37,822 nt of DNA from positions 1-37,822 of the IMG/VR virus record IMGVR_UViG_3300034111_000310; one strand, 5' to 3'. A program made the position numbers and the translations under genes. The stretch is from a virus. This document shows, piece after piece, positions 9,252-37,822 of the stretch. The notes under the pieces were generated by a model. The model did not search any database and had not been told where the DNA came from. It was given only the letters and a program-made list of their open reading frames with translations. Positions within the stretch are counted from its first letter, which is position 1, and each line of letters starts with the position of its first letter.

Positions 9252-9896
9252 TTAAGCGCGATTCGTCAAATACCACCGGGCGTGCAGCTCCGGTCGATTC
9301 GCGCGCAGCCACGGCTCCGCATCTTCCATGCACTTCTTCGCGTCCTGCCCGCACGTCTGGCTCCCGACGTGGTGAACGTAGGCGCGAGAGACGAAGTGCT
9401 GCCGCTTCATTTCTAGGCACTGCACGTCGTCCGAAAACCAGTTGATCGGCGGGAAGTCGATCCACGCGTCCCGGTGAATCCACGCGCAGATCGGCGCGAT
9501 GATGTCCGCCCGCAGGATGTGCTGCTCGGACTCGTAGCGCAGGAAGTTGATCTGACCGCGACCGATACGGATGTTCTGCCCTCCGCGAGCGTAGTCCGAC
9601 CGGGTTGCAACCCACCCGAGATCCGCGATGTTTGCCCTCAGATGCGCGACATCGTAGGCGAGCGTCTCCCACGTCGTCGGCGTGAACACGATGTCGTCAT
9701 TGCACACGACCACCGATTCGTGCGCGCGGAAAGCCTCTCGCACGCCGTGATTGTACGCCTCGCCGAAGCTGCTCCCGACGTTGCGAAAGATCAGCACCTC
9801 GACCTCGCGCGGAACGTAGGCCGCGATTGACGCCTTCATGACCGCGAGGCACCGCGCGTTCATCGTGCAGATGACGATGGCCGGGAGCGTGCTCAC
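9252..9896 (-). CDS. Glycosyltransferase, GT2/GT-A-like
   Basis: A 214-residue protein starting at a GTG that overlaps the upstream glycosyltransferase stop as GTGA. The N-terminus LPAIVICTMNARCLAVMKAS gives the first beta strand and nucleotide-binding turn of a GT-A fold. HESVVVCNDDIVFTPTTWE (about residues 78-95) carries a DXD-like metal site, N-D-D. Residues near 150-165 (FPPINWFSDDVQCLEMKR) could form the acceptor and catalytic region. It should transfer a sugar from a nucleotide-sugar donor; donor and acceptor are unknown. It forms a pair with the larger glycosyltransferase directly downstream of the major capsid gene. This suggests modification of a virion protein or of host surface glycans (inference). 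Confidence 0.7.
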   Translation of the reverse strand: MSTLPAIVICTMNARCLAVMKASIAAYVPREVEVLIFRNVGSSFGEAYNHGVREAFRAHESVVVCNDDIVFTPTTWETLAYDVAHLRANIADLGWVATRSDYARGGQNIRIGRGQINFLRYESEQHILRADIIAPICAWIHRDAWIDFPPINWFSDDVQCLEMKRQHFVSRAYVHHVGSQTCGQDAKKCMEDAEPWLRANRPELHARWYLTNRA

Positions 9897-11275
9897 TTCG
9901 CACCTCCGAGGATTCGCTCGATGTTCGAGGCGTCGATCACGATGTCGCCGGACGCCACTACCTTGTCGTCCCAGCTGTGCGGCGGGACCATGCCGTCCTC
10001 GACGTTGATCACGATCATCGCTCGGTCTGGTCTTAGCGCTGCTCCGAGGTCGTGCAGGAACTGCTTCGCCATCGACACGGTCTCGGCGTCGTTTGGATCG
10101 ACCACGAACCGGTGCTCGACGATCTCCGGTCTGCTCGCCGTCGCCAGCCACGCGTCGCGGAACGAGACGGATTTCGTCGAGTTGCCCAGCGTCTTTTGGT
10201 TCAGCAGGATAGCCGGGAGCGCGTGCCTGTGATAGACGAGCTGCATCGCGTCCGCGTCCGCAGTCTGGCCGGCCAGACGAAACGCGCGAGCCGCGAGGTC
10301 GTGCCCCGCCCAGCCGTACCACTTCGCTTCGTGCGTCCACGGACGGTCACCGGGCGCAGGCTCCGGCAGCTTGAGCATATGCGACGCCCACCAGCTCGCC
10401 CGCTTGCCGTCGTTGCGCTCAAAGGCCAGCATGATGATCGAAGCGATTGCCTCCCGGCACCACGGGAACACGCCGTGCGCCGACATCGCGAGCTGAAGCG
10501 ACTCGCGGCGACTAGCCGAGATCCGCGCCAGATTAAGCAAGACCTCGTACCGAAACGAGTCGTCGAGATTTGGGAACGAGATCGCGATCTTCCCAAACTG
10601 CTCCGCCGCCGACTTGTTTCCCGCGCAGTAGTGCTCTTGATGTATGTAAAAATACTGCGTCGCTGCCTCGTTCACGCTCCTCCCGAGGATCGCGAGGTTT
10701 CGCTTGCGGTTGTCCTGCTTGATCGCCTGCGGCAGATGGTGCCACACCGGAGTCGCCCAGTCCTCGTGCCGGTCGTTTGGCAGCAGGAGCAGGTTCTCGT
10801 GGACATCGTGGTGCCAGATTCGCCCCTCCTGAAACGCGCTGCGCCGGATGAAGCGTTCCCGAGGGAGTCGCTTGCCGGTTCCTCGAACGTCGTACGGGCA
10901 GCGGATCATGAGAACGTCCTCAGATAGCGCCGCGAGCCTGTCGCGAAGCCCCTCAAATTCCGCGAGTTGGTCGTCGCAATCCGCCCAGACGAGCCAATCT
11001 CCGGTCGCCTGCGAGAACGACTGATTGCGTGCCCGTGCGAACGAATCGACGTGCTTCCATGCCCGAGCGGTCACGCCGTTAAGATATTCGCTGAAAACGA
11101 ACGCCTTGCCGTTCTCTGCACACCACTGGCGCGCGATCATCTCGGTCTTGTCGGGTTCCTTCGATCCGATTGCGCGGACGAGTGACAGCTCATGGAATGA
11201 GCCTTTCCATGACCCCAGCAGAGAGCGAATGTGGTGCTCCTCGTTCCCGCAAATAACGCAGAGTGAGATTGTCAT
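9893..11275 (-). CDS. Family 2 glycosyltransferase with helical C-terminal region
   Basis: A 460-residue protein starting MTISLCVICGNEEHHIRSLL, the classic GT2 opening strand. TGDWLVWADCDDQLAEFEGL (about residues 91-110) includes the DXD-type metal site ADCDD. An acceptor-loop-like segment follows (RIWHHDVHENLLLLPND). From about residue 190 it is helical and TPR-like (AGNKSAAEQFGKIAISFPNL). This layout resembles GT2 proteins with C-terminal repeat domains. The start at 11275 is preferred over an in-frame codon at 11341, because that extension would run through the terminator and the A/C-rich leader. It is the first gene after the capsid terminator and may have its own promoter, but I found no convincing one. 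It overlaps the next glycosyltransferase by 4 nt. Confidence 0.78.
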   Translation of the reverse strand: MTISLCVICGNEEHHIRSLLGSWKGSFHELSLVRAIGSKEPDKTEMIARQWCAENGKAFVFSEYLNGVTARAWKHVDSFARARNQSFSQATGDWLVWADCDDQLAEFEGLRDRLAALSEDVLMIRCPYDVRGTGKRLPRERFIRRSAFQEGRIWHHDVHENLLLLPNDRHEDWATPVWHHLPQAIKQDNRKRNLAILGRSVNEAATQYFYIHQEHYCAGNKSAAEQFGKIAISFPNLDDSFRYEVLLNLARISASRRESLQLAMSAHGVFPWCREAIASIIMLAFERNDGKRASWWASHMLKLPEPAPGDRPWTHEAKWYGWAGHDLAARAFRLAGQTADADAMQLVYHRHALPAILLNQKTLGNSTKSVSFRDAWLATASRPEIVEHRFVVDPNDAETVSMAKQFLHDLGAALRPDRAMIVINVEDGMVPPHSWDDKVVASGDIVIDASNIERILGGAK

Positions 11276-11292
11276 TGTGTTTGTGTGTTGCG
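11276..11292 (-). promoter_or_regulatory. A/C-rich SD-less leader of the glycosyltransferase gene
   Basis: The coding strand reads CGCAACACACAAACACA directly before ATG. It contains only one G and no Shine-Dalgarno sequence. Confidence 0.5.
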
Positions 11293-11321
11293 TATCCGTG
11301 TCAATAGATCGCCGCCAGAGG

Positions 11322-11361
11322 GTCAAAGCAAAAAGCCCCACGCCGGTAAAGGCGTGAGGCT
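11322..11361 (-). terminator. Intrinsic terminator after the major capsid gene
   Basis: On the minus strand the stem AGCCTCACGCC pairs with GGCGTGGGGCT (11 pairs, one of them G-T) across a TTTACC loop (11361-11334). It is followed by TTTTTGCTTTG. The wobble pair exists only in minus-strand RNA. It lies 24 nt after the capsid stop and should reduce transcription from the capsid genes into the glycosyltransferase and tail genes. Confidence 0.88.
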
Positions 11362-13702: not shown

Positions 13703-13987
13703 TCAGCGTTGCGCCGGTGCGTTTCGCATCTCGACCAATCGGTCGATCTTCGTGTTGATTTCGCGAAGCGTCGTCTTCATGTCCGCGAGCTGGTTTGCCG
13801 TCGCGCTTCGATCCGATTGATACTCGGCGCGGCTCACGGTCTGCCCGAGAGCTGCCTCGGTGTAGGTGATCCGCTGCTCGATTGCGCCAGCGCGTGCGCC
13901 GAGCCACATGATATTGCCGACGATTGCCGCGATTGCGACAAGGGTCGGAAGCCACCGCGCCACCGCGTCCTTTTGTTGTTCGCTCAT
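13703..13987 (-). CDS. Single-TM coiled-coil protein, spanin/holin-accessory-like
   Basis: A 94-residue protein with one membrane segment at the N-terminus (WLPTLVAIAAIVGNIMWLGA, about residues 12-31). A polar helical stretch with heptad-like spacing follows (about residues 35-85, ending DMKTTLREINTKIDRLVEM). This architecture matches inner-membrane spanins or small lysis accessory proteins. It follows the holin-like gene by 7 nt, which favours a lysis role. No partner outer-membrane lipoprotein was recognised. A virion or membrane-anchoring role cannot be excluded. Confidence 0.6.
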   Translation of the reverse strand: MSEQQKDAVARWLPTLVAIAAIVGNIMWLGARAGAIEQRITYTEAALGQTVSRAEYQSDRSATANQLADMKTTLREINTKIDRLVEMRNAPAQR

Positions 13988-13994
13988 GTGAATC

Positions 13995-14432
13995 TTATTT
14001 CGACTTTGGTCGTGACCCGAACCACCACGTCAGCGCGGTCGCAGCGGTGAACACGAGATCGGAAACGAGAGCCGCGCGCGTCACCGGGTCGAGATTGCCA
14101 CGGAACGCGAGGAGCGAGATCACGACGGCGAGCGCCCACGTCAAAGCCGGACGCGTAAACCGGCGGAAGGAATCGACCACCACGGCAAGGTTTGCCGCCC
14201 ACGGTGCAGTTTGCTCCGGAATCCCGACCGAGTCCTCGTTTGCGGACTGCTGCGAGGTCGTGAACGCTTTTAACTCCTCCTCCTTGATCTTGAGTTCCTG
14301 CAACGCCTTCGCTCGCAGGATGTCCACCTCCGCGTTCTTGCGGTGCGTGTACGAGTCAAACCACTTGTCCCCAAAGCTCAGCACCTTTCCGAGAATCGTC
14401 CCGCCTATCGCAGATGAAAAGAAGCCGAGCAT
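13995..14432 (-). CDS. Holin, 3-TM (GTA_holin_3TM-like)
   Basis: A 145-residue protein with an N-terminal glycine-rich amphipathic segment (MLGFFSSAIGGTILGKVLSF). A charged coiled-coil-like middle follows (KALQELKIKEEELKAF). Two hydrophobic segments lie at the C-terminus, about residues 95-112 (PALTWALAVVISLLAF) and 120-138 (SDLVFTAATALTWWFG). This closely fits the three-TM holin family first noted in gene transfer agents and widespread in phages. It should form lesions in the inner membrane and release or activate the lysozyme. The cognate exported lysozyme lies far away at 35600-35986, so the lysis functions are split. It starts 1 nt after the upstream gene. Confidence 0.75.
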   Translation of the reverse strand: MLGFFSSAIGGTILGKVLSFGDKWFDSYTHRKNAEVDILRAKALQELKIKEEELKAFTTSQQSANEDSVGIPEQTAPWAANLAVVVDSFRRFTRPALTWALAVVISLLAFRGNLDPVTRAALVSDLVFTAATALTWWFGSRPKSK

Positions 14433-19842: not shown

Positions 19843-22590
19843 TTATTTGCTGCTCTTCGGATGCTCAGCTGGAAGGAGATCGTTGTCAGTCGTGTACTTC
19901 GGATTCTCGGGTCGTCCGTTTTTCAACAGGTAGAGGAACGCGTTGACGCGAGCGAAGGCCCACTGCGACGCAGAGGTCACTCGCGGCGAACTCGACGTGT
20001 TGAACGCACCGAGACCGCGCTGAAACACCGACTTAAGTGCGCCGAGGGTCGCGCGTCCGTTGCGCGTGTTTGAGTCCTTTTCGTTGAAGTCGTCCGCTTT
20101 CTTTTGAAGCGTCGCCTCTTGTTCTGCCGTGACCTCCGCGCCGCGCGTGGTCGAAGCGTCGCCCCTTGCGGTGCCCTCGCCCTTTGGGTCGGGATTCGGC
20201 GTGTCGGACTTTGGTGCCTTGTCCGATCCGACGATTGCTCCGCGCTCTCCGACCTTCGCGAACATACCCTCGTGCTGCCTCATGCAAACAGCCGTGCGCT
20301 GCTCCGCGTCTGGAAACTCGGCCACCGACACCGGATCAGCCATGCAGCGCGACATAAACTCGTCGTGCGTTTCTTTGGCGGTCGGCGTCGGTAATTCGTA
20401 CTGCTTCTTGCTCAGTTGCACGACCGTGCGATCTCCGAGGATCGACTGCTTGATCTGATCGACGCGCGCGTTCTGTTTTTCGCGGAACTTCTGAACGGCG
20501 TCCAGCCACTCTTCTGGCTCCGGCGGTTGGATTGCGGCGAAGGTTTGCCTGACCTCGGTCGAGGCTGCTCGTAATTCCTTTGAATCCGCCTGCTTGTTAA
20601 TGCGCTCGACGATGGCGGTTGACCACGAGTAGCCCTCATCGCCACCCCACCCGTTCCACGCCTGCCAGCCCTTACCCTGCTCGTCCCACGTCTCGCCCTG
20701 CTTGTCTACCTCATGGCGGTCAAAGAAAGCCTTCATGCGGCGCACGGTGTCCTCGGACATTGGACGCTTGTTGATCAGGTCGCGGGCGCGAGCGATGCCG
20801 ACGCTGGTCATGCCGCGCTGCGATGCTGGCTTCTTCTCGCGCACGTCGAGCGCGCGGCGAGCGTTCTCGGCCATCGCGTTGGTCGGAATGTAGCTGCCGG
20901 TCTCAAGATTGATCGTGATCAGGTTAGAGTCGTCGAACGCGTTGCCGGGCACGATCTCCTCGCCGGGAGCCTGCCCGCCGACTGATTCCGGCCCGCCGGT
21001 CTGCGGCATGACGCTCGCGGCTTGCGCGTCCGCTGCTGCCTTGCCTACGGCATCGCCCGAGGCTGCGGCTGCGGTCGGCGTGCTCGGGAGCGACTGCGTC
21101 GTCAGGCGGATAGCCGTCTCCGGCACGCCGTACTTCTCCGCAAGCTCCTTCACGAATCCGGCCTCGATTGCAATCTGCTCGAGACGAGCGAACGCGTCCG
21201 TGCCCTCCTCAGCGGCGATCTCTTGAAGCGACTTCGCGCCCTGCCGGTTCTCGTTCATGTTCGCGGCGGACTCGCGCCCGACGTCGATTGAGAGCTTCGC
21301 CGGGAATCGCCATTCGCCACGGGTCGCCCGGCGCAGAGCCTGCACCATCGTCTCGCCGGCCAGAAGCGTCGGCGGCGGAATCTCGCTCCGCGCAATCGCG
21401 TCGAGGATCACGGCGTCCTTGATCGGATCGAGCACCTTGTCGGTCAGCACGCCCTGATGCTTCGAGAACACTCGGTCAGCGGCTGCGAACTCTGCGCGGA
21501 CGCTCGGTCCCTTGTAATCTTGCGTGCCGAACAAGACACCCTCGGGCACGCCGACGCCGAGAGCGATCTCGTGCATAAGATGCTGGACGAAGCCGGTGAA
21601 CGCCTGTGACGGGCGCGCTGGCATGACCTCGACGCGATCGCTGTTTGAAAAGTATCGAATCATGCCGACCTCGGTCAGCTCGTTCTTCTGCTGCTGCCCG
21701 CTCGGGAGCGAGAGCGCCGGGTTCGGCTGGAACAGGTTGCGCGGATTCGCCGCTCCGCGCTCGTTGAAGATCAGCGCGGCCTGCTGCGAGGAGAAGCGAA
21801 CGCCCGCCTTCTCTGCCTGCAAGATGTCGTGAAGCATCCGCGCGGTCTGGATCGCGGCGTGCAGGTCTGTGATCCCTCGGTACTGATCGACTCGGAATGG
21901 ATCGAAGTAGTGGCAGAACTGGTTTGCCGGAATGTCCTCCGCGCCAAAGTAAACGCCGTTCCGGTCAACGCGGAAAATCCGGTACGCGACCGGCTGGCCG
22001 AAGTCGTTCGTGATGATGCCCTGATAATAGTTGTCGGACTCAACCGCCGACATGTTCGGATTTCCGATGCGAGTCGCCGGAACGAGCTGGAGCTTGAGCC
22101 CGTCGGTCGTGCGCCGGATGACGAAGCCGCAGTCGCCATCGACCGGGCGCTCCTCGGCGGCGAGCTGCACGAGCTTCTTAAAAGAGTGCCGATTCGTGAC
22201 GTCGCAGTTCTTGCACCACGCGTGAAAGTATTCGCTGATCGTCTGATTGTATCCCCGGTCGCCGGTCGTCGGCGAGTACTCGTGCGGCGTCAGGTAGTTG
22301 CCAAACTTGCGCGAGATTTCGCGCGCCTCGGGAAAGTTCTCAACGAGGTCACGCGCTTCCCACATCATCACCACGCGGTCGCGCTGGTTCTGCGTGGACT
22401 CCGCCGGTTGCCCGTACTGCTTCGGAGCGTAGAGCCGATTCGTGCGCGCCGCGTTGTACTCGAACAGATGCCTCTGCACGCGAGATTCGAGACGCCGGAG
22501 CGCCCACGTCGGCGCAACGTTCTCCAGAGCGCGGTCCACCCACGGCTTGTTTTTGACGATTGCGGCTGCGTCGAAATGCTCGGTGTCCAT
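19843..22590 (-). CDS. Portal protein (lambda gpB family) with long C-terminal extension
   Basis: A 915-residue protein. Residues about 1-530 are a portal of the lambda B type: VMMWEARDLVENFPEAREI, RKFGNYLTPHEYSPTTGDRG, FCHYFDPFRVDQYRGITDLH and VGVPEGVLFGTQDYKGPSVR. Family portals are about 500-550 residues, so roughly 380 extra residues follow. In the extension I see MSEDTVRRMKAFFDRHEVDK (around 605-625) with a nearby Trp/Gly-rich GWQAWNGWGGDEGYSW. A two-Cys helix follows, THDEFMSRCMADP...AVCMRQH (around 745-780). At the end is a block with GAFNTSSSPRVTSASQWAFA (around 860-880, resembling DUF5824). Such modules occur elsewhere as tails of phage head proteins. It lies between gpW-like and fibre genes. 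The leader CACAAAAAAGCAC has no SD. Confidence 0.85.
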   Translation of the reverse strand: MDTEHFDAAAIVKNKPWVDRALENVAPTWALRRLESRVQRHLFEYNAARTNRLYAPKQYGQPAESTQNQRDRVVMMWEARDLVENFPEAREISRKFGNYLTPHEYSPTTGDRGYNQTISEYFHAWCKNCDVTNRHSFKKLVQLAAEERPVDGDCGFVIRRTTDGLKLQLVPATRIGNPNMSAVESDNYYQGIITNDFGQPVAYRIFRVDRNGVYFGAEDIPANQFCHYFDPFRVDQYRGITDLHAAIQTARMLHDILQAEKAGVRFSSQQAALIFNERGAANPRNLFQPNPALSLPSGQQQKNELTEVGMIRYFSNSDRVEVMPARPSQAFTGFVQHLMHEIALGVGVPEGVLFGTQDYKGPSVRAEFAAADRVFSKHQGVLTDKVLDPIKDAVILDAIARSEIPPPTLLAGETMVQALRRATRGEWRFPAKLSIDVGRESAANMNENRQGAKSLQEIAAEEGTDAFARLEQIAIEAGFVKELAEKYGVPETAIRLTTQSLPSTPTAAAASGDAVGKAAADAQAASVMPQTGGPESVGGQAPGEEIVPGNAFDDSNLITINLETGSYIPTNAMAENARRALDVREKKPASQRGMTSVGIARARDLINKRPMSEDTVRRMKAFFDRHEVDKQGETWDEQGKGWQAWNGWGGDEGYSWSTAIVERINKQADSKELRAASTEVRQTFAAIQPPEPEEWLDAVQKFREKQNARVDQIKQSILGDRTVVQLSKKQYELPTPTAKETHDEFMSRCMADPVSVAEFPDAEQRTAVCMRQHEGMFAKVGERGAIVGSDKAPKSDTPNPDPKGEGTARGDASTTRGAEVTAEQEATLQKKADDFNEKDSNTRNGRATLGALKSVFQRGLGAFNTSSSPRVTSASQWAFARVNAFLYLLKNGRPENPKYTTDNDLLPAEHPKSSK

Positions 22591-22869: not shown

Positions 22870-24657
22870 CTAGTCTTTAGGCGCTGTGTACCGGATCACG
22901 TTCGCGATGGTCGCCATGCACAAGATCATCGCCGAGGTGTCGAGACCGTGATTCGGCGCGTTGCTTTTAACCTCCTGCCACGCCCAGACGCCGGTGCGGA
23001 TCTCGACCTTCGACTCGCCCTTGAGGTGTTCGAGGTAGAGCGGGTTCACGTCTGCCGGCAGAAGCCATTTGAGGTCGCCTCGATCTTCGAGCGCGTTTGC
23101 CAGCAGGTCTTTGAAGTAGTCGCCCGACCAATCGTAGTAGTATACGTCGCCGCCTCGGTAGTCGCTGATCCGAGGTTCCGAGAACGGGAAGTTGACCAGC
23201 GTGTCGCTGTGGTCGTCGCGCATCGTCCACGTCTTGCGCGCGTGCCCTCGCATACCTCGCCAGCCGAAGTCCGCGCAGTCCCGATCTACGTCGGCGGGTC
23301 GGTAGCCCTTGTCCTGCGCGACGCAGGCGTCCGGCACCTTGTACCGCTGCTGGAGATGCCGGAGCTGGTCGCGGGTCTCCACGCGGCCGAAGTAAAGTTG
23401 CTTATAGGTCGTCCCGGTCGCGGAGGCGAACGCGCCGATCTCGACCCACCAGTGATCCTTCTGCCGGTCGATTGCCATGAGCCGGATCACCTCGTTCTCG
23501 ATCTGCTGCCCAGCGGCGAATGTCGCGACCGAGTAGTCGCTCGTTCGCACGAACAGGTTGACGACCTTTTTCTCGACGATCCACGGGCGCGCCTCCCGCT
23601 TCGTGCGAAACTCGATCAGCATTTTGTCGTCACCCTGCTTGATCCGGTGGTTCTGCGCTTCGCAGAACTCTTCGACCAGCAGGCGCATTGGACGCGAGAC
23701 GAGCGACTCGACGCGGAAGGATGCGAACTCGGCGGGCGCGTCCGGGCGCAGAGGAACGTAACGCCCGGTCTTTTTCCACGCGTTGCGGGTCGCGTCGCTG
23801 TCCGGCGTCTCGTGGCCGCAATGGCAACGAAACCGGCAAGACTCGACCGCGCGCGCGACGTCAATCGTGTCGTCGTCCCGCTTCGCCTCGATGTCCCAGA
23901 CGACGCCGGCGCGGATCTTTGTCTCCTCGTTCCGCCCGAGCGAGAACGCGACCGGATGAACCTTGCGGCACGACGGACACTCGGCGGACCACTCCTGTTG
24001 ATTGCCCTGCCGGAAAGACGTGTCCTCCACGTTGCCGGTCTCGATGTCCATGACCGGAGCCTGCGACGTGTTGTAGATTTTCGAGCGCCCCACCTCCTCG
24101 AAGCGCGAGACGCGAGCGACGGCGTGACCGTACACGTCCTGCCACTTCGGGAGCCAGATCTCGTCGTTGATCTTGTACCGGATCGACTGCGACTGCTGCG
24201 ACGAAAGGTTCGCCGGGTTGAGGATGAAAAAGAATCCGCCGAAGTAGATCTCGGTGGTCGTGCGCTGCGGTCCTGTCCTCGGTAGCATCCGAGCGACCGG
24301 CTTGCACCCCTCGAAGATCGGATTCAGCCGAGACTTCGCGTGCCGGTCGATCATCTCGTCGGTCTGCATCGTCCACGAGATCGGTCCCGCGTCGTTGCAG
24401 ATCAGCCACGGAACCCAAATGTCGGCGACGAGCGTTCCGCCGATTTGCACCGCTTTTCGGAAATGGACTCGCCGGATCAGCGGATTCTGAAGCGCGTCGA
24501 AGATCGGGACGAGCCACGGCGAGATGCGAACATTGAACGGTCCCGGCGTCGCGTACGAGTCGGGCAAGACGATGTTCCGCCGCGCCCACTCGTAAATTGG
24601 CGAGCGGTCGCGCTTCGGAGAACGGAAGTCGGCGAGGCGTCGTTCGGTCTCGGTCAC
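22870..24657 (-). CDS. Terminase large subunit (gpA family)
   Basis: A 595-residue large terminase of the lambda gpA type. The N-terminus YEWARRNIVLPDSYATPGPF and the ATPase region VHFRKAVQIGGT (a deviant Walker A, about residues 64-75) are typical. YKINDEIW (161-168) is the Walker B region. A Cys pair CPSC (227-230) and a second cluster CRFRCHCGH (274-282) form the usual metal-binding insert. The C-terminal half holds the nuclease region (for example AFASATGTTYKQLYFGRVET, DKGYRPADVDRDCADFGWRG). The enzyme cuts concatemers and pumps DNA into proheads. The GTG start overlaps the methyltransferase stop by 4 nt. gpA-type enzymes usually act at cos sites, which fits a lambda-like phage; the site itself is not identified. 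Confidence 0.9.
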   Translation of the reverse strand: MTETERRLADFRSPKRDRSPIYEWARRNIVLPDSYATPGPFNVRISPWLVPIFDALQNPLIRRVHFRKAVQIGGTLVADIWVPWLICNDAGPISWTMQTDEMIDRHAKSRLNPIFEGCKPVARMLPRTGPQRTTTEIYFGGFFFILNPANLSSQQSQSIRYKINDEIWLPKWQDVYGHAVARVSRFEEVGRSKIYNTSQAPVMDIETGNVEDTSFRQGNQQEWSAECPSCRKVHPVAFSLGRNEETKIRAGVVWDIEAKRDDDTIDVARAVESCRFRCHCGHETPDSDATRNAWKKTGRYVPLRPDAPAEFASFRVESLVSRPMRLLVEEFCEAQNHRIKQGDDKMLIEFRTKREARPWIVEKKVVNLFVRTSDYSVATFAAGQQIENEVIRLMAIDRQKDHWWVEIGAFASATGTTYKQLYFGRVETRDQLRHLQQRYKVPDACVAQDKGYRPADVDRDCADFGWRGMRGHARKTWTMRDDHSDTLVNFPFSEPRISDYRGGDVYYYDWSGDYFKDLLANALEDRGDLKWLLPADVNPLYLEHLKGESKVEIRTGVWAWQEVKSNAPNHGLDTSAMILCMATIANVIRYTAPKD

Positions 24658-25283
24658 TTTCGAATCACCCAGAAGTTGTTACGTACGACGCTGAACTCAA
24701 GATTCCGCTCCATCGTGAAGCGGATCACGGCAGGACCGACACCGGGAAAGCCAACGTCGTCGCCGAACATGATTCCGCCGAGAGCGACGAGCGGCCAAAA
24801 AGCGCACAGGTCGTCATGCACGTCCGCGTATTCGTGCGAGCCGTCGATGTACACTAGTTCGGCGCAAATCTTGTGGTGCTGCAAGATCCTCGCCCCGTTA
24901 ATGCTGGTATTCTGGATCGGATAAATGCGCTGCGCGTGCGGCGAGTCCTTGATGTTGCGGATAAACTGATGATAGAGCCTCGGGCATCCGACCGAGTCGA
25001 GGAGCCGGTCGTTCTCCGATCCGCTTGAAAGAACGTGATCAATTCCTCCGAGCCATGTGTCCACGCAAACAATGTCGCTCGCGAAGCGCTCGGTCGCCTT
25101 CGCGAAGTGAATTGCGCTCCGGCCCTTCCACGAACCGACTTCAATGATCGTTTTCGGTGCGAGCAGTTCGACAAGTTCGTCGAAGATCGGGTCGTCGCTG
25201 TTCCAGCCGCGAATGTCCTCGTGTTTGGGAAGCTGGCTTGTGTCGCCTGATGTGAGCTGCGCGATTGATGGGAATGGTTTCAT
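24654..25283 (-). CDS. SAM-dependent methyltransferase (Methyltransf_24-like)
   Basis: A 209-residue class I methyltransferase. Motif I is TIIEVGSWKGRSAIHFA (about residues 45-61), and an acidic strand end follows (DIVCVDTWLGG). ELVYIDGSHEYADVHDDLCA (about 141-160) is the signature of the Methyltransf_24/cephalosporin-hydroxylase-like group, whose members often methylate sugars or small molecules. It lies between a glycosyltransferase and the large terminase, separating the two terminase genes. Methylation of a glycan made by the neighbouring enzymes is a reasonable inference; no direct evidence exists. The leader is AATTAAAAAC with no SD. The stop overlaps the terminase GTG. Confidence 0.78.
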   Translation of the reverse strand: MKPFPSIAQLTSGDTSQLPKHEDIRGWNSDDPIFDELVELLAPKTIIEVGSWKGRSAIHFAKATERFASDIVCVDTWLGGIDHVLSSGSENDRLLDSVGCPRLYHQFIRNIKDSPHAQRIYPIQNTSINGARILQHHKICAELVYIDGSHEYADVHDDLCAFWPLVALGGIMFGDDVGFPGVGPAVIRFTMERNLEFSVVRNNFWVIRK

Positions 25284-25292
25284 GTTTTTAAT

Positions 25293-26045
25293 TCAGAATG
25301 ATATGATCTGCGGACAGTTGCGACGCGATTCGCAGAGCGCGAGAATTTGTTCCTCTGTCACGCGGTGGTGCTGGATGCCGTAGCCCCCGCGCAGGTTCAC
25401 CTTGCTCTGCCGGTCCCGCCGGTCGCGCGTCCGCCGGGTTACCGCAAACGACGGGTCAGCGTTTTGCCAGTGCGTGCCCTCGAACCAGAACGCGTGATCG
25501 AAGGTGCCGCCGCATTGCCGGTGATTCCCGAGGTCGAGACAGATGCCCCGGTCGGCGCGGATCACGATGGGCTTCTGGTAGAGGATGTTCTCTGGCGAGC
25601 GGTAGTCAGGATCGCCGAAGCGACGCTGCGGGACCGGAGGCTGATCGAGGTCGAGGTCGCGCTCCGAGTGATGTCGGAACACGTTCCGCATCCGAGCCTC
25701 GATCACCGTGACGGTCTCGGGAACGCTCGCGAGGTACTCTTGCGGATTCCCGCAGCGGCTCGGCCAAATGAATTCATCCGCGTCCACGACAATCTTCCAC
25801 GCGGACGCAGACGGCTCGGCGAGCAACGCGTTGACCTTGTCCGTCTTCATGCGGTCGTCCATGCCAGCCGGGAACTCAAAGTCGATCACGCGCACATTGC
25901 GCGCAGCTTCGAGGACTTCGCGGGTGCGGTCGCTGGATCGCGAAACGACCGCGAGGATCTCGTCGGCCCACGCGTAGTGCTGGACGAACAGGCGCGCCAG
26001 CGTCTCTTCGTTATAGAAAAAGCAAATGACTTGAACGTGGGTCAT
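25293..26045 (-). CDS. Glycosyltransferase, family 2-like
   Basis: A 250-residue protein that starts MTHVQVICFFYNEETLARLF, typical for GT2-like enzymes acting on glycans. WKIVVDADEFIWP (about residues 81-93) contains the metal-binding DAD/DXD motif. Further on are an HWQN segment and a basic stretch TRRTRDRRDRQSKVNLR. It should use a nucleotide-sugar donor; specificity is unknown. The ATG at 26045 overlaps the small terminase stop by 4 nt. A longer in-frame extension is an Arg-rich shadow of the small terminase and is not used. Its insertion between the two terminase subunit genes, together with the methyltransferase, is unusual. Confidence 0.78.
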   Translation of the reverse strand: MTHVQVICFFYNEETLARLFVQHYAWADEILAVVSRSSDRTREVLEAARNVRVIDFEFPAGMDDRMKTDKVNALLAEPSASAWKIVVDADEFIWPSRCGNPQEYLASVPETVTVIEARMRNVFRHHSERDLDLDQPPVPQRRFGDPDYRSPENILYQKPIVIRADRGICLDLGNHRQCGGTFDHAFWFEGTHWQNADPSFAVTRRTRDRRDRQSKVNLRGGYGIQHHRVTEEQILALCESRRNCPQIISF

Positions 26046-26689
26046 GGCTCGTCGTCCGAGACCCGCGCGCTCGTTGCAACCATCCCGCCCTGATAGAGAG
26101 CGATGTTCGAGTTGATCACCTCGCGGATCTCGTCGAGGATTACCCCGCCCTCGACGTTGACCTCGGCTGCGTTCTTCCCGATCACGCGCTGCCCGAGTTC
26201 GACTTCGAGCTTGAGCCTCAGGAGCAGGTCGAGCTTCTGCGACAAGGTTGCGAGCATGTCGTCCACGACTTCCTTCGCGATGACTTCCCCGGCCTCGCGC
26301 TCGTTCTTCGCGCGGGCGAGCCGGATCTGCTCGCGCATCAACTCGGCTTTGAGTTCGGCGAGGTTCTTCGTCGCCGTGTCCTTGCCGATCACGTTCTCCG
26401 CGCAGAACTGCTGCCACGCGACGAGGTTCTCCCGGCGACCGTCCTCATGCTTCGCGGGCGCGTTTGGGAAGCGGGCGCGCGCGTCGTAAACTGCCTGACG
26501 CGAGAGACCGAGTTCCTTCGCAAGCGTCGTCGTGTCCTTGACCCAGCCGTCCGACTGCTCGGACTGAAACTCGATCATCGCCTTGCGATCCGCAGCCGTC
26601 ATGGTCTTGCCCGCCTTCAGCTTTGAGGCGATGTTCGCGAGGTTTTTCCGCGCGAGGAGTTCGGAAGGTGACTGCGGCGTGTCGGTCAC
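26042..26689 (-). CDS. Terminase small subunit-like DNA-packaging protein
   Basis: A 215-residue protein starting at GTG 26689, which overlaps the stop of the methyltransferase fusion as GTGA. A helix-turn-helix is visible at TTTLAKELGLSRQAVYDARA (around residues 55-74). A long helical region follows (NLAELKAELMREQIRLARAK) and an oligomerisation-like part (SQKLDLLLRLKLEVELG). This arrangement fits small terminases that recognise the packaging site and load the large subunit. A long Arg-rich extension upstream of 26689 is rejected because it overlaps the previous gene out of frame. It is separated from the large subunit by two non-packaging genes. Confidence 0.72.
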   Translation of the reverse strand: MTDTPQSPSELLARKNLANIASKLKAGKTMTAADRKAMIEFQSEQSDGWVKDTTTLAKELGLSRQAVYDARARFPNAPAKHEDGRRENLVAWQQFCAENVIGKDTATKNLAELKAELMREQIRLARAKNEREAGEVIAKEVVDDMLATLSQKLDLLLRLKLEVELGQRVIGKNAAEVNVEGGVILDEIREVINSNIALYQGGMVATSARVSDDEP

Positions 26690-31253: not shown

Positions 31254-31477
31254 GCCGTCGTCCTTTCCGTCGCCGTCTTGCGCCGGATCATCAGGAAGTC
31301 GCGCTCCTCGTCGGTGATGCGCTGGTTGATTAGACCCAGCTTTTTTGAGCGAAGGAACGCGCTGGTCATCGAGCCGCGCATCACCGAGGCGATCTCCTTA
31401 GGCGTCTGGAATTCCATGAGCCTCCGGTCGATCTCGTCGTTGATTAATTTCTGTTCTGCTTTGCATCGTCTGTTCAT
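31250..31477 (-). CDS. Small HTH-like protein, 75 aa
   Basis: The product begins MNRRCKAEQKLINDEIDRRL, and TPKEIASVMRGSMTSAFLRS followed by KKLGL gives a helix-turn-helix of the kind seen in phage regulators and transposase-type domains. The ATG at 31477 is chosen because the 28 nt before it are an A/C-rich leader (AACCCAAAAACCAAAACACA) that also encodes the tail of the previous gene. An upstream in-frame start would translate that leader. It is coupled to rusA by ATGA. It could be a DNA-binding regulator; the target is unknown. Confidence 0.6.
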   Translation of the reverse strand: MNRRCKAEQKLINDEIDRRLMEFQTPKEIASVMRGSMTSAFLRSKKLGLINQRITDEERDFLMIRRKTATERTTA

Positions 31478-31677
31478 GGGTTTGTGTTTTGGTTTTTGGG
31501 TTTGAATTGTCCGAGTTTGTTGCGACGGGTCTTGTCCGCCTTTATCTTTTGCAGGAAGTCCTCGACCCATTGCTGGTCGCGACCGAGCTTGATCCCGCGA
31601 CGGCGCGCGATGCGGTACGTTGTGAGGTTCGCGACGCAGAACGCCGCGATGATCAGAACCAGTTCGAGGTTAGTCAT
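31474..31677 (-). CDS. Small single-TM membrane protein, 67 aa
   Basis: The first about 18 residues (NLELVLIIAAFCVANLTTY) form a membrane segment, followed by a strongly basic stretch RIARRRGIKLGRD. The tail ends KPKNQNTNP. The positive-inside rule predicts a cytoplasmic C-terminus. The Asn/Lys/Pro tail is an effect of the A/C-rich leader of the next gene lying inside this frame. It overlaps the exonuclease gene stop by 4 nt. Its function is unknown; small membrane proteins in early regions often affect superinfection or host physiology. Confidence 0.6.
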   Translation of the reverse strand: MTNLELVLIIAAFCVANLTTYRIARRRGIKLGRDQQWVEDFLQKIKADKTRRNKLGQFKPKNQNTNP

Positions 31678-32510
31678 GATTCCCTCCCGTACCACTTCGG
31701 CAGTCCCAGCTCGTGGACGACCGGCTCGATGTTCGGCCAGACTCCGGTCTCGTAGCATCGCTTGAGCCGGATCAGGTCCTCGATGTTCTCGTCCTGTCCG
31801 CGAGCAATGGCGTCGTCGCTGAGTCGATACACCGCGCAGCCGAACGGCTCGACCTTTTCGATGGCGACGTAGTACATCTGCGCGACCGGCTTCGAGTGCA
31901 GCTCGTTGATCAGCGGGAGGTAGAAGCCCGCCTGCCGATGGTAGCCGTAGCTGAACGCCGCGCGCTCGAAGTTCCGGAATGCGTCCGAGTCGAGTGACTC
32001 GACCGTCTTGATGTCCAGAACGTACGGCGCGCCCGCGGTCGTCTCGCAGCCGTCGGCGTTCCACCAGTCTGTCCGGCATTGCAGAGCGCCGAGCGCGTTC
32101 GCCTGCGGTACGCGCCACGTCGTTTCCGGCGTCCCGGTCTTGAGCAGGTCGCAAGCAATAGGGTGAGCTGCGACTGCCTCGCGCATCGCGATGACCTGCA
32201 CGAGTTCCTCGGCGCTGATGAACGTCTTGCCGAGGTGATGTGCGGACCACTCCGCGAACTGCGCCTTGCCTTCTTTGGTCCGCCGGTCGCAGTCCGGCTT
32301 CACGGCGTAGCGGTCGGCAAAGGTAGACTCTTCGAGGATCGCGCAATGGACTGCGCTGCCGAGCCGGAACGCGTTCGACTCCTCGGACTGCGGAAGCGTC
32401 TTCGCGACGTACTTCTTGAAAAAGAGAGCAGGTCGGCGCCGGAAGCATTCGAGCTTCGAGTGCGAGATCGCTGCGTTCGCGTGATACTGTTCGATGGGTT
32501 CAGTTGTCAT
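31674..32510 (-). CDS. RecE-like PD-(D/E)XK exonuclease (DUF3799 type)
   Basis: A 278-residue nuclease. Visible are FRLGSAVHCAILE with H55, CRTDWWN with D148, VLDIKTVES with D166 and K168, and YHRQAGFY with Q193 and Y197. This order matches the RecE C-terminal nuclease family, which degrades the 5' strand to yield 3' single-stranded ends for an annealing protein. A RecT-like protein is encoded nearby (34377-35063), so the pair forms a recombination system. The ATG at 32510 lies 11 nt inside the end of a small membrane protein gene. An upstream in-frame start is rejected because it overlaps that gene. Confidence 0.85.
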   Translation of the reverse strand: MTTEPIEQYHANAAISHSKLECFRRRPALFFKKYVAKTLPQSEESNAFRLGSAVHCAILEESTFADRYAVKPDCDRRTKEGKAQFAEWSAHHLGKTFISAEELVQVIAMREAVAAHPIACDLLKTGTPETTWRVPQANALGALQCRTDWWNADGCETTAGAPYVLDIKTVESLDSDAFRNFERAAFSYGYHRQAGFYLPLINELHSKPVAQMYYVAIEKVEPFGCAVYRLSDDAIARGQDENIEDLIRLKRCYETGVWPNIEPVVHELGLPKWYGRES

Positions 32511-35089: not shown

Positions 35090-35124
35090 CCCCTCGTCGT
35101 TAACCCGGCGAGGGGTTTTTGTTT
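35090..35124 (+). terminator. Intrinsic terminator in plus-strand orientation
   Basis: The plus strand has CCCCTCGTCG-TTAACC-CGGCGAGGGG (35090-35115), ten pairs with one T-G wobble, followed by TTTTTGTTTT. On the minus strand the wobble becomes A-C and no T-tract follows, so the terminator points opposite to all genes. It may stop antisense transcription, or serve only as a leader hairpin of the RecT-like mRNA. Confidence 0.55.
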
Positions 35125-35140: not shown

Positions 35141-35578
35141 TTAGAACGGCACCTCTTCGTCGCCCGCGAGCGCGGGAGCCTGATCGCGGACGGCAATGGC
35201 CGGAGCGGACGACGGGAGGTTGCCCTGTCGCTCGTGCCAGAGCGTCCTGACCGCGTTCTGGAGAAGCACGTCCGCGTCCCTAGGCGGGAAAGGCGTGCCG
35301 TCTTTCTTGAGCTGAGGCTCGCGGTCTGCGCCGTACCAGAGGAGCTGCTTGTCGTTCAGTTGCGAGATTGGCGTGCCCGCGTTCTTCCCGAAGTGAACGG
35401 TGGTCTCGCCCGCTCTCTCGATCACGACGCGAGGCATCGGGAGCGAGTCAGGCGTGCGCGTGGTGGTTGACTTCGGAGCGGGCGTAGAAGCCTGCGGGAG
35501 CGTCTGCCGCGCTTCGAGCGCGTGACGGATGCCGATAAGCTCGGCGAGCAATGCGTGGAACTGTGTGTCGGTGATCAT
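35141..35578 (-). CDS. ExoX-C-like domain protein with SSB-like acidic tip
   Basis: A 145-residue protein. The N-terminus is helical (FHALLAELIGIRHALEARQT), then a Pro/Thr/Ser linker. The central VHFGKNAGTPISQLNDKQLL followed by WYGADRE matches the small FGK-x-x-G-x-P-x-x-x-L domain found at the end of ExoX-type exonucleases and in many phage proteins. The extreme C-terminus GDEEVPF resembles the acidic tip of bacterial SSB (DDDIPF), which docks recombination and replication partners. No OB-fold is apparent, so it is not a classical SSB. It lies just upstream of the RecT-like gene, fitting an ssDNA-recombination role (inference). Confidence 0.65.
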   Translation of the reverse strand: MITDTQFHALLAELIGIRHALEARQTLPQASTPAPKSTTTRTPDSLPMPRVVIERAGETTVHFGKNAGTPISQLNDKQLLWYGADREPQLKKDGTPFPPRDADVLLQNAVRTLWHERQGNLPSSAPAIAVRDQAPALAGDEEVPF

Positions 35579-35599: not shown

Positions 35600-35986
35600 T
35601 TATTTCTTCGCTGCTAAAGCCGCGACCTTTCGCCCGTAGCCGAGCGTGGCCGGTTTGCTAGCCCCTCGCGGCCCGCCATTGTGGACGCGGGCGAGCACCT
35701 CTACGTCGCCCTTAGCCCACGCCTCGGGCGCGTATCTCTGAAGATAGGCAGAGGCGACGCGCTTCGAGTAGGCTAGGTCCGCGACCCGCTCGTAGGCTCC
35801 CGGCACGCGGCTGTCGGAGTGGTACGAGCGATGGATCTGAAGCGGTCCGAGAGCCTTCCCGCCGTCGCCGACGATAGGACCGTGCCTGCCGGACGTCTCG
35901 ACGAGGTGGAGGGCGAGCCAGAACGAGTCGGGCGGAGCGGCGTGCGCGGAGACCGCGAGCGCGAGCAGGAAGATTGCGTGTTTCAT
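35600..35986 (-). CDS. Exported i-type (destabilase-like) lysozyme
   Basis: A 128-residue protein with a short signal peptide (MKHAIFLLALAVSAHA, cleavage probably after AHA at 14-16). The mature part follows the i-type lysozyme pattern of invertebrates: E30 in LHLVETSG, D41 in VGDGGKALGPLQI, then the helix AYLQRYAPEAW and the signature ARVHNGGPRG (99-108). In clam lysozyme the corresponding Glu and Asp are the catalytic pair, spaced as here. The many disulphide cysteines of animal members are absent (no Cys). A goose/SLT-type lysozyme is the alternative, because GPLQI is shared. Its role is peptidoglycan cleavage at lysis, exported through Sec. It lies in the early region, away from the holin. 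Confidence 0.75.
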   Translation of the reverse strand: MKHAIFLLALAVSAHAAPPDSFWLALHLVETSGRHGPIVGDGGKALGPLQIHRSYHSDSRVPGAYERVADLAYSKRVASAYLQRYAPEAWAKGDVEVLARVHNGGPRGASKPATLGYGRKVAALAAKK

Positions 35987-36031: not shown

Positions 36032-36946
36032 TCAGACCGCGATCAGTGTGTTGAGCGCGTTCTGCTTAAGATCCGCCTCGCAGCCAATCGTGACCCGCTC
36101 CATGCGGAGTTCGACCGCGCGCTGGTTTTTCGTCTCGTAGTGATCGAGCCAATCGGTGACGCCGTTGAACAGATCGTACGCCGTCTTGCCCGAGTTGCCC
36201 GCGCCGGTCTGGTACAGCGACAAAACGTGGTCGATGTTCTTCTTCGATTCCTTAGGCATGATCTTCTCGGTCAGGATTCGCTCGGCCTCATCGAGCGTCA
36301 TCGCCTTGCCGATCAGCGTCTCGTAGGAGCGGAACAAAGCCTCGGTGCCCTCACGGGACCAGCGCATGATCTTTATTGCAGCCTCGACGCGGTCCATGAC
36401 CTTCGTCGTGTGCATGACGCTGAACCCCGCCCCGCCCTCGGCGCGTGCCGCGCTGTACGTATTCCAGCAGACTACGCGGGTATCAACGAGCGCAAACGAG
36501 ACGCGGGCCTTGCCAGCGTGACCGTTCGAGGCGAGGACATACTGCTTGTGCTCCTCGCCGTTGCAGAGCGTCCGCTCGCCGATCTTTAGGAGGAACCAAA
36601 CGATCCCGCCGTTGAACAAAGATCCCGCCGTCTCGAAGCAAGCCTCGCCGGTCGAGACGATGCTCTCCGCGATCTCCGCGAGAGCGCGGTTCTGGAATGG
36701 GCCATACTTCGGGCTGACGATGCCGAGGACGCTGCCGTCGTCAGTGCGGGTCAAAGCCTTGTGGCCGGGAATCTCCTGCATGTCCGCCGTGTAGATCGGA
36801 CGGTTTTCGACCTCCCAGTCTAGGCGGGCGAGTTCGAGTGCCTTCTGCGAGTCAGCGCGGCCTTCGATCACCGTGCCGAGCCCGTGCCACGGGACGGTGT
36901 TGGAGCCGCTAAACATTGTGTCTTTTTCTTCGATGTGGTGTGCCAT
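36032..36946 (-). CDS. DUF932 (phage/plasmid TIGR03299-like) protein
   Basis: A 304-residue protein starting MAHHIEEKDTMFSGSNTVPW. It has WHGLGTVIEGRADSQKALEL and LGIVSPKYGPFQNRALAEIA, the landmarks of the DUF932 family. ALVDTRVVCWNTYSAARAEG and HTTKVMDRVEAAIKIM are further family features. The length of about 300 fits. The molecular role is unknown; the family is common in phages and plasmids and often highly expressed early. The start at 36946 is preferred over a longer frame because of the A/C-rich leader CAACACACACACGACA and because the extension would read through promoter-like DNA into the phosphoesterase gene. Confidence 0.85.
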   Translation of the reverse strand: MAHHIEEKDTMFSGSNTVPWHGLGTVIEGRADSQKALELARLDWEVENRPIYTADMQEIPGHKALTRTDDGSVLGIVSPKYGPFQNRALAEIAESIVSTGEACFETAGSLFNGGIVWFLLKIGERTLCNGEEHKQYVLASNGHAGKARVSFALVDTRVVCWNTYSAARAEGGAGFSVMHTTKVMDRVEAAIKIMRWSREGTEALFRSYETLIGKAMTLDEAERILTEKIMPKESKKNIDHVLSLYQTGAGNSGKTAYDLFNGVTDWLDHYETKNQRAVELRMERVTIGCEADLKQNALNTLIAV

Positions 36947-36962
36947 TGTCGTGTGTGTGTTG
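36947..36962 (-). promoter_or_regulatory. A/C-rich SD-less leader of the DUF932 gene
   Basis: The coding strand reads CAACACACACACGACA directly before ATG, without Shine-Dalgarno sequence. Confidence 0.55.
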
Positions 36963-36988
36963 CAGGGGTTAATTCCCCCGATGAAACG

Positions 36989-37016
36989 ACCATAGACCAT
37001 GCCCGACCTATGTCGA
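36989..37016 (-). promoter_or_regulatory. Candidate sigma70-like promoter
   Basis: On the minus strand TCGACA (37016-37011) and TATGGT (36994-36989) are separated by 16 bp, 43 bp upstream of the DUF932 ATG. Each hexamer differs from consensus by one to two bases. The host sigma factor is unknown, so this is only a candidate. Confidence 0.35.
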
Positions 37017-37053
37017 TACCTATCTGAATCTTTTCGCAGTCCCTTCCCGTAGC

Positions 37054-37068
37054 CTTTGATAATCAAAG
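37054..37068. promoter_or_regulatory. Perfect palindrome, possible operator
   Basis: The plus strand reads CTTTGAT-A-ATCAAAG, two 7-bp arms around one central base, about 40 bp upstream of the candidate promoter. No repressor gene of the phage is known to bind it. Confidence 0.4.
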
Positions 37069-37091
37069 ACTTAGGTGCGATTAAATATCCG

Positions 37092-37822
37092 TCACCGTGC
37101 CTCGGTGATCTCGAAATCAACCTTGCCGCCCGTGACATGATAGAGCCGGAGCCACGCAGCGCCGACTGGTTTCGGCGGTCCGCCTCGCTCGATGTGCCAG
37201 CCGCCGTAGCCGTCGCCGTGCTCCTCCTTGTATCCGGCGGTGCGGACGTGCACCTGCCTCGTGTGCTCGACCACGTGCGAAAAGTTTAAACGTATTCGCG
37301 AAATAGATACCTGCCACGCGTCGTGCGTGTGACCGGTGTGCACGATGTCCGCGTCCGCGAGGTACACCGCCATGCGGTTTGTCTGGATCACGCCGCGCGT
37401 AACTGGTCCGCCGCCGCCGTACCCGTGGTGGTAGTGATACGTCAGCATGTCGTTGCGGGTCTGCTCCAGCTTCACGTTGAACCTGATGAAGCCGGAGAAC
37501 CCACCGTGGCGAATGTTCGCCGCGCCCTTCGCGCGCAATCGCTCGACGAGCCGCTCGGTCAGATCGGTCTCATGATTCTTGAGCATTGCGGTCTCGTGAT
37601 TGCCCCACCCTCGCATGGTCAGGATCGAGGCGTAGGGTTCGAGCCAATCCGCAGCGGTGCTCACGAGCTTGTCGAGGTAGTCGCCCTTTTGGTGGTCCGG
37701 CCTGATATCGTTCTTGTTAGATCTCTTGTCGTACTTGCCTTGCATCGCGCAAAAGAAGTCGCCGATGTCGATCACCGGCGCGTTGCGCTTGAGCGCGAGA
37801 TCGAGATGCCGCTTGAGCATCG
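37092..37822 (-). CDS. Metallophosphoesterase, C-terminal part
   Basis: This is the main part of the 291-residue phosphoesterase whose N-terminus lies at 272-1 (37696-37822 repeats 1-127). Numbered from the true start, it shows GNHE at 122-125, the His-rich YHYHHG around 177-182, and GHTH at 212-215. Together with D38-x-H40 and G69-D70 these complete the calcineurin-like metallophosphoesterase motif set. The inner ATG at 37820 (MLKRHLD) is not the real start, because D38/H40 lie upstream of it. It ends 145 nt before the DUF932 start, a gap holding a palindrome and promoter-like elements. The substrate is unknown; nuclease, phosphatase or 2',3'-cyclic phosphodiesterase activity are all possible in the family. 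Confidence 0.88.
   Translation of the reverse strand, partial: MLKRHLDLALKRNAPVIDIGDFFCAMQGKYDKRSNKNDIRPDHQKGDYLDKLVSTAADWLEPYASILTMRGWGNHETAMLKNHETDLTERLVERLRAKGAANIRHGGFSGFIRFNVKLEQTRNDMLTYHYHHGYGGGGPVTRGVIQTNRMAVYLADADIVHTGHTHDAWQVSISRIRLNFSHVVEHTRQVHVRTAGYKEEHGDGYGGWHIERGGPPKPVGAAWLRLYHVTGGKVDFEITEAR
37696..37822. repeat. Terminal direct repeat, right copy
   Basis: Exact copy of 1-127 at the other end of the window, marking the overlap at which the genome closes. Confidence 0.95.

Follow-up and report, generated by a model that had tools for sequence, protein, structure and literature searches.

The i-type lysozymes have been studied as animal enzymes rich in disulphides. In the leech destabilase, Glu34 and Asp46 form the muramidase dyad (PMC10126035). 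The name destabilase is already attached to phage proteins in databases. PhaLP 2.0 includes destabilase domains among its predicted lysins, with the name taken to mean 'destabilize the cell wall' (PMC13237592), a viral structure library holds the entry 'Destabilase [uncultured Caudovirales phage]' and UniProt also has a phage destabilase entry. Among named phages, homologues occur in Cellulophaga phages Calle_1 (QQV89760.1, annotated 'lysozyme (Destabilise-like protein)'), phi38:1 and phi40:1 and, weakly, in Microcystis phage Mel-JY01. The searchable papers yielded no study of a phage i-type or destabilase enzyme. Exported endolysins are known from other phages: Lys44 of fOg44 carries a signal peptide, P1 Lyz and R21 are of the SAR type, and the holin acts as a timer (PMC6116005).

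The window (the whole stretch of DNA analysed, 37,822 nucleotides) is the entire record of a whole virus entry. It carries an i-type-like lysozyme gene, and the features that the comparison requires are as follows.

1-127, no strand: terminal direct repeat, left copy, an exact 127-bp match with the right end
364-714, minus: last tail-module gene in transcription order, about 2 kb before the lysozyme in the circle
13703-13987, minus: spanin-like candidate, Rz-like, with one N-terminal membrane segment (phrog_7686, 1.1e-4, weak)
13995-14432, minus: holin candidate with three hydrophobic stretches (GTA_holin_3TM, 0.026, weak, below the Pfam cut-off)
35141-35578, minus: conserved neighbour of 145 aa, no assigned function, with the lysozyme upstream in 138 of 142 loci (a count that includes some overlapping fetches from one contig)
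35600-35986, minus: i-type-like lysozyme gene, 128 aa, ATG start at 35986 (from homology, the structural model and 543 viral relatives)
35663-35692, minus: ARVHNGGPRG signature, residues 99-108 (translation and alignments)
35834-35848, minus: GPLQI motif, residues 47-51 (translation and alignments)
35864-35866, minus: codon of D41, predicted second catalytic acid, equivalent to Asp46 of destabilase in HMM alignments and invariant in the phage relatives
35897-35899, minus: codon of E30, predicted general acid, equivalent to Glu34 of leech destabilase in HMM alignments and invariant
35939-35986, minus: predicted signal peptide, residues 1-16 (MKHAIFLLALAVSAHA), with a signal peptidase I-like AHA motif
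36032-37138, minus: DUF932 gene directly upstream of the lysozyme (Pfam, 1.2e-33), start codon uncertain
37092-37820, minus: phosphoesterase/exonuclease-like gene whose frame runs on over the circular join
37696-37822, no strand: terminal direct repeat, right copy, an exact 127-bp match with the left end

The reading frame at 35600-35986 is a real gene. It has 543 relatives in IMG/VR, and a set of residues (E30, D41, G47, Q50, D58, R100, N103, G104, G105, G108 and T114) does not vary among 131 sequences, made up of the window protein and 130 unique relatives, which excludes a chance frame. E30, D41, GPLQI and ARVHNGGPRG, on which the first-pass annotation relied, stand at the positions it gave. 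With the animal enzymes (8bbu, 2dqa and 3ab6) the protein shares the fold, as modelled (TM-score 0.78 by target), the Glu/Asp pair and the G-P-x-Q-I and A-R-x-H-N-G-G-P-x-G signatures. It differs from them in a D41-G47 loop one residue shorter, in a bacterial-type signal peptide and in scoring below the Pfam cut-off. Moreover, its translation contains no cysteine in 128 residues, whereas destabilase has 14, all engaged in disulphides (PMC10126035). The missing disulphide cysteines had been noticed at first reading and are the rule in the phage relatives: the mature part has none in 73 of the 131 sequences, one in 57 and two in a single sequence. Disulphides therefore cannot hold the fold together in the phage branch.

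The two ends of the record repeat 127 bases exactly, indicating a complete genome of 37,695 bp that is circular or circularly permuted. The minus strand carries all annotated genes; read over the join, they run from a GpJ-like tail tip and the last tail gene through phosphoesterase, DUF932 and lysozyme to the 145-aa protein, RecT and exonuclease. The lysozyme had been assigned to the early region. A placement deep in that region is ruled out by the terminal repeat together with the conserved order of tail genes and lysozyme: it is an artefact of the point at which the circular record opens, since in the circle the lysozyme comes after the tail module with two genes in between. What remains of the claim is that the gene sits at the boundary between tail and early genes. 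This arrangement is fixed: in each of the 63 relatives whose sequence extends far enough, the lysozyme follows the last tail gene at a distance of 87-1350 bp. Ten relatives lack it on contigs that end within 1 kb. In the lysozyme slot of the relatives no other lysin was found, and those without lysozyme are all truncated except L138, where the tail gene stops 190 bp before the 145-aa neighbour. In the window clade the lysozyme thus belongs to the core genes, placed where the tail module ends. The promoter scan gave nothing above shuffled sequences, hence no promoter support for late expression.

Residues 1-16 are predicted, from their residue pattern, to form a cleavable-type Sec signal peptide conserved across the 130 relatives. 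Residues 4-15 are hydrophobic, and the cleavage-site pattern shows Ala at -1 in 128 of 131 sequences and A, S, C, T or V at -3 in all of them; the signal peptide proposed initially is borne out by this pattern and its conservation. The AlphaFold2 model is uncertain only at the N-terminus (pLDDT 61-74 at residues 1-20 and 97-99 beyond). Lys44, P1 Lyz and R21 likewise possess their own Sec export signal. However, their catalytic domains are different, the holin candidate of the window is encoded far from the lysozyme, and the conserved A-x-A motif, unlike a SAR anchor, argues against an N-terminus that stays uncleaved.

As the first-pass annotation had also remarked, the lysozyme is not beside the holin: the holin and spanin candidates lie at 13703-14432. 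The former recurs in 5 of 11 related records, the majority of them incomplete. Apart from the DUF6950 protein of the tail module, no other peptidoglycan hydrolase was recognised in the 21 window proteins scanned for lysins, about half of those predicted. A core gene, the lack of another recognised lysin and the presence of holin- and spanin-like genes together favour an endolysin. The gene therefore probably encodes a Sec-exported, disulphide-free phage endolysin, a muramidase of i-type fold. The computed support consists of the fold, the alignment of catalytic residues, their conservation, the signal-peptide pattern, the fixed position and the absence of another recognised lysin; from these we infer enzymatic activity, cleavage, export, timing and a role in lysis. 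Speaking against an endolysin are the distance to the holin and spanin candidates, the weakness of both those matches and the absence of a promoter signal for late expression. The lysozyme would be synthesised as a precursor bearing a cleavable Sec signal peptide and exported during infection. In the periplasm it would cut the MurNAc-GlcNAc backbone, E30 serving as the general acid and D41 as second carboxylate. Because the lysozyme carries its own export signal, the holin candidate would then govern when lysis occurs through membrane depolarisation and not through release of the enzyme, in parallel with Lys44, P1 Lyz and R21. The outer membrane may subsequently be left to the spanin-like protein. 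Another small membrane protein, of 68 aa and with a strong N-terminal membrane segment, could also be relevant to lysis; it is encoded at 31474-31680 (minus), and many relatives have it between exonuclease and RusA.

The position right behind the tail module might also suit a virion- or tail-associated lysozyme, packaged in the particle and opening the wall at entry, and the viral structure library places many phage domains of lysozyme fold in virion proteins. This is nevertheless improbable. The conserved signal peptide would route the protein out of the cytoplasm, where tails are assembled, and the protein is a stand-alone one of 128 aa in which a tail domain is absent. A DUF6950 protein encoded within the tail module is, judging from similar tail modules, the likely entry peptidase, and a virion role would leave the phage without a recognised endolysin.

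There is likewise little chance that the gene specifies an accessory secreted lysozyme, serving to kill competitor cells, to exclude superinfection or to clear debris. Such a role would fit the lack of holin linkage here and in L069, L093 and Calle_1, contexts with different neighbours. It would also fit the Calle phages, for which the listed lysis gene is an amidase (PMC8776804), so that their destabilase-like protein may be additional. In the window clade, however, the lysozyme is a constant member of the core gene set, and no further endolysin was recognised among the window proteins scanned. The Cellulophaga phages Calle_1, phi38:1 and phi40:1 resemble the window in having an i-type-like protein with a signal peptide and equivalents of E30 and D41, and in showing no recognised holin adjacent to it. 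They differ in sequence (about 31% identity), in tree branch, in phage group and host and, for the Calle phages, in the amidase.

The probable endolysin is assigned to the i-type (destabilase-like) lysozymes, an assignment supported by sequence profiles and by the structural model. With the single sequence, the PDB search finds leech destabilase (8bbu, E 1.8e-9), then Meretrix 3ab6 and 4pj2 (4e-8) and Tapes 2dqa (3e-5), and no credible match outside the i-type lysozymes. A profile of 12 relatives matches them at 7.5e-13 and one of 56 relatives at 2.6e-24 (8bbu) to 3.6e-17. With the latter only i-type enzymes fall below E 0.06, c-type lysozymes come next at 0.07 and GH23 is absent from the listed matches. 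AlphaFold2 on the 56-row alignment gives a model with pLDDT 93 and pTM 0.84, for which Foldseek ranks i-type chains 1 to 6 (E 1.8e-5 to 4.3e-4, TM-score by target 0.71-0.79). The family proposed by the first-pass annotation is thus recovered by both routes, and the SLT or goose-type match named there as its refutation scores lower, goose-type lysozymes starting at 2e-2 and the transglycosylase MltD/SLT at 0.17. It is very improbable that a GH23 enzyme, whether lytic transglycosylase or goose-type/SLT, has been mistaken for i-type: the two share a lysozyme superfamily, SLT profiles match 3 of 12 members, and goose-type lysozymes and MltD appear among the lower structural matches, but i-type is ahead both by sequence (2.6e-24, GH23 unlisted) and by structure (1.8e-5 against 2e-2), and D41, a second acidic residue, is invariant whereas in GH23 enzymes one glutamate generally does the catalysis.

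The window protein scores 15.9 bits against Pfam Destabilase (PF05497), below the gathering cut-off of 26.2 bits, and the absence of any match in the PF05497 search of the window is consistent with this low score. PHROGs and NCBIfam hold no family for it. A Pfam CsoSCA_C match (E 0.0014, below cut-off) was rejected as due to chance, with partial overlap and no carboxysome context. The first-pass annotation regarded the fold as one not usually given to phage endolysins; the i-type fold stands, but phage relatives already bear the name destabilase in public records, and the cysteine-free enzyme is a variant of a recorded kind.

The HMM alignments pair E30 with Glu34 and D41 with Asp46 of destabilase, a match at the level of alignment, and H102, within ARVHNGGPRG, aligns with His112. 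The candidate isopeptidase nucleophiles Ser49 and Ser51 are replaced by K44 and A45, while the histidine is kept; a serine at position 45 is found in 40 of the 131 sequences. An isopeptidase role was rejected on this ground. Since the Glu/Asp pair is retained and both serines are absent, the protein is predicted from its sequence to be a muramidase and isopeptidase activity is not expected. In the distant Verrucomicrobiota/Kiritimatiellota homologues L122, L124, L125, L126 and L127 the Glu is kept and the second acidic residue is apparently missing (e.g. ESENGKTSDNVYQIS), suggesting that family members may differ in catalytic mechanism.

Homologues are also present at 38 loci in GTDB genomes, mostly of Planctomycetota or Verrucomicrobiota. 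They have the same domain and signatures and are 35-52% identical to the window protein. Unlike it, several pass the Pfam Destabilase cut-off (homologues in six bacterial genomes), their bacterial context lacks the phage genes of the window clade and some distant members lack the Asp. One of the six genomes carries the L093/G021 relative, 62% identical to the window protein, which reaches 35.9 bits with the same profile. In the tree, the window clade forms one group, including two MAG sequences labelled Proteobacteria, nested among Planctomycetota homologues, and the three animal sequences group apart from the rest. With an arbitrary root and partial animal sequences, this topology gives no direction of transfer.

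Relatives of the terminase (about 22-37% identity) were detected in 18 of 388 Verrucomicrobiota genomes sampled and in 1 of 392 Planctomycetota, which points weakly to Verrucomicrobiota as the likeliest host. In the stretches fetched, the Verrucomicrobiota prophages with related terminases have no i-type lysozyme and therefore do not tell which lysin the group had earlier. No relative of the MCP was found in named phages. Window-clade phage contigs (L092, L287 and L307; MCP 75% and terminase 73% identical) occur in a MAG labelled Betaproteobacteria (G020). In its class, terminase relatives are restricted to this MAG, which is either mis-binned or an infected host.

A compact, cysteine-free core phage gene suggests that the i-type fold and its catalytic pair need no disulphides. 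Such a lysozyme would be easy to produce, and the family offers testable lysin candidates against PVC-group bacteria, on which, to our knowledge, few lysins act. It would also explain the 'destabilase' domains left unexplained in PhaLP 2.0 (PMC13237592). A wider reading is conceivable and rather doubtful: an uncultured phage group, possibly of Verrucomicrobiota, would use a disulphide-free i-type muramidase as its only endolysin, Sec-exported and triggered by holin depolarisation, and would belong to a prokaryotic branch ancestral to the disulphide-rich animal i-type lysozymes.

Several other features of the window were observed. Between RecT and the 145-aa gene, a strong hairpin followed by a T run (35090-35115) resembles a terminator in the plus direction, the genes being on the minus strand. 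Judged by eye, few gene starts have a Shine-Dalgarno-like purine run upstream, and several stand in A/C-rich contexts such as AACACATG and CAAAACACATG. Glycosyltransferase- and methyltransferase-like genes, also recognised by eye (9252-11341 and 24654-26050, minus), are inserted among the structural genes and beside the terminase. The lambda-type portal protein (19843-22590, minus; 915 aa) carries a long C-terminal extension that matches DUF5824.
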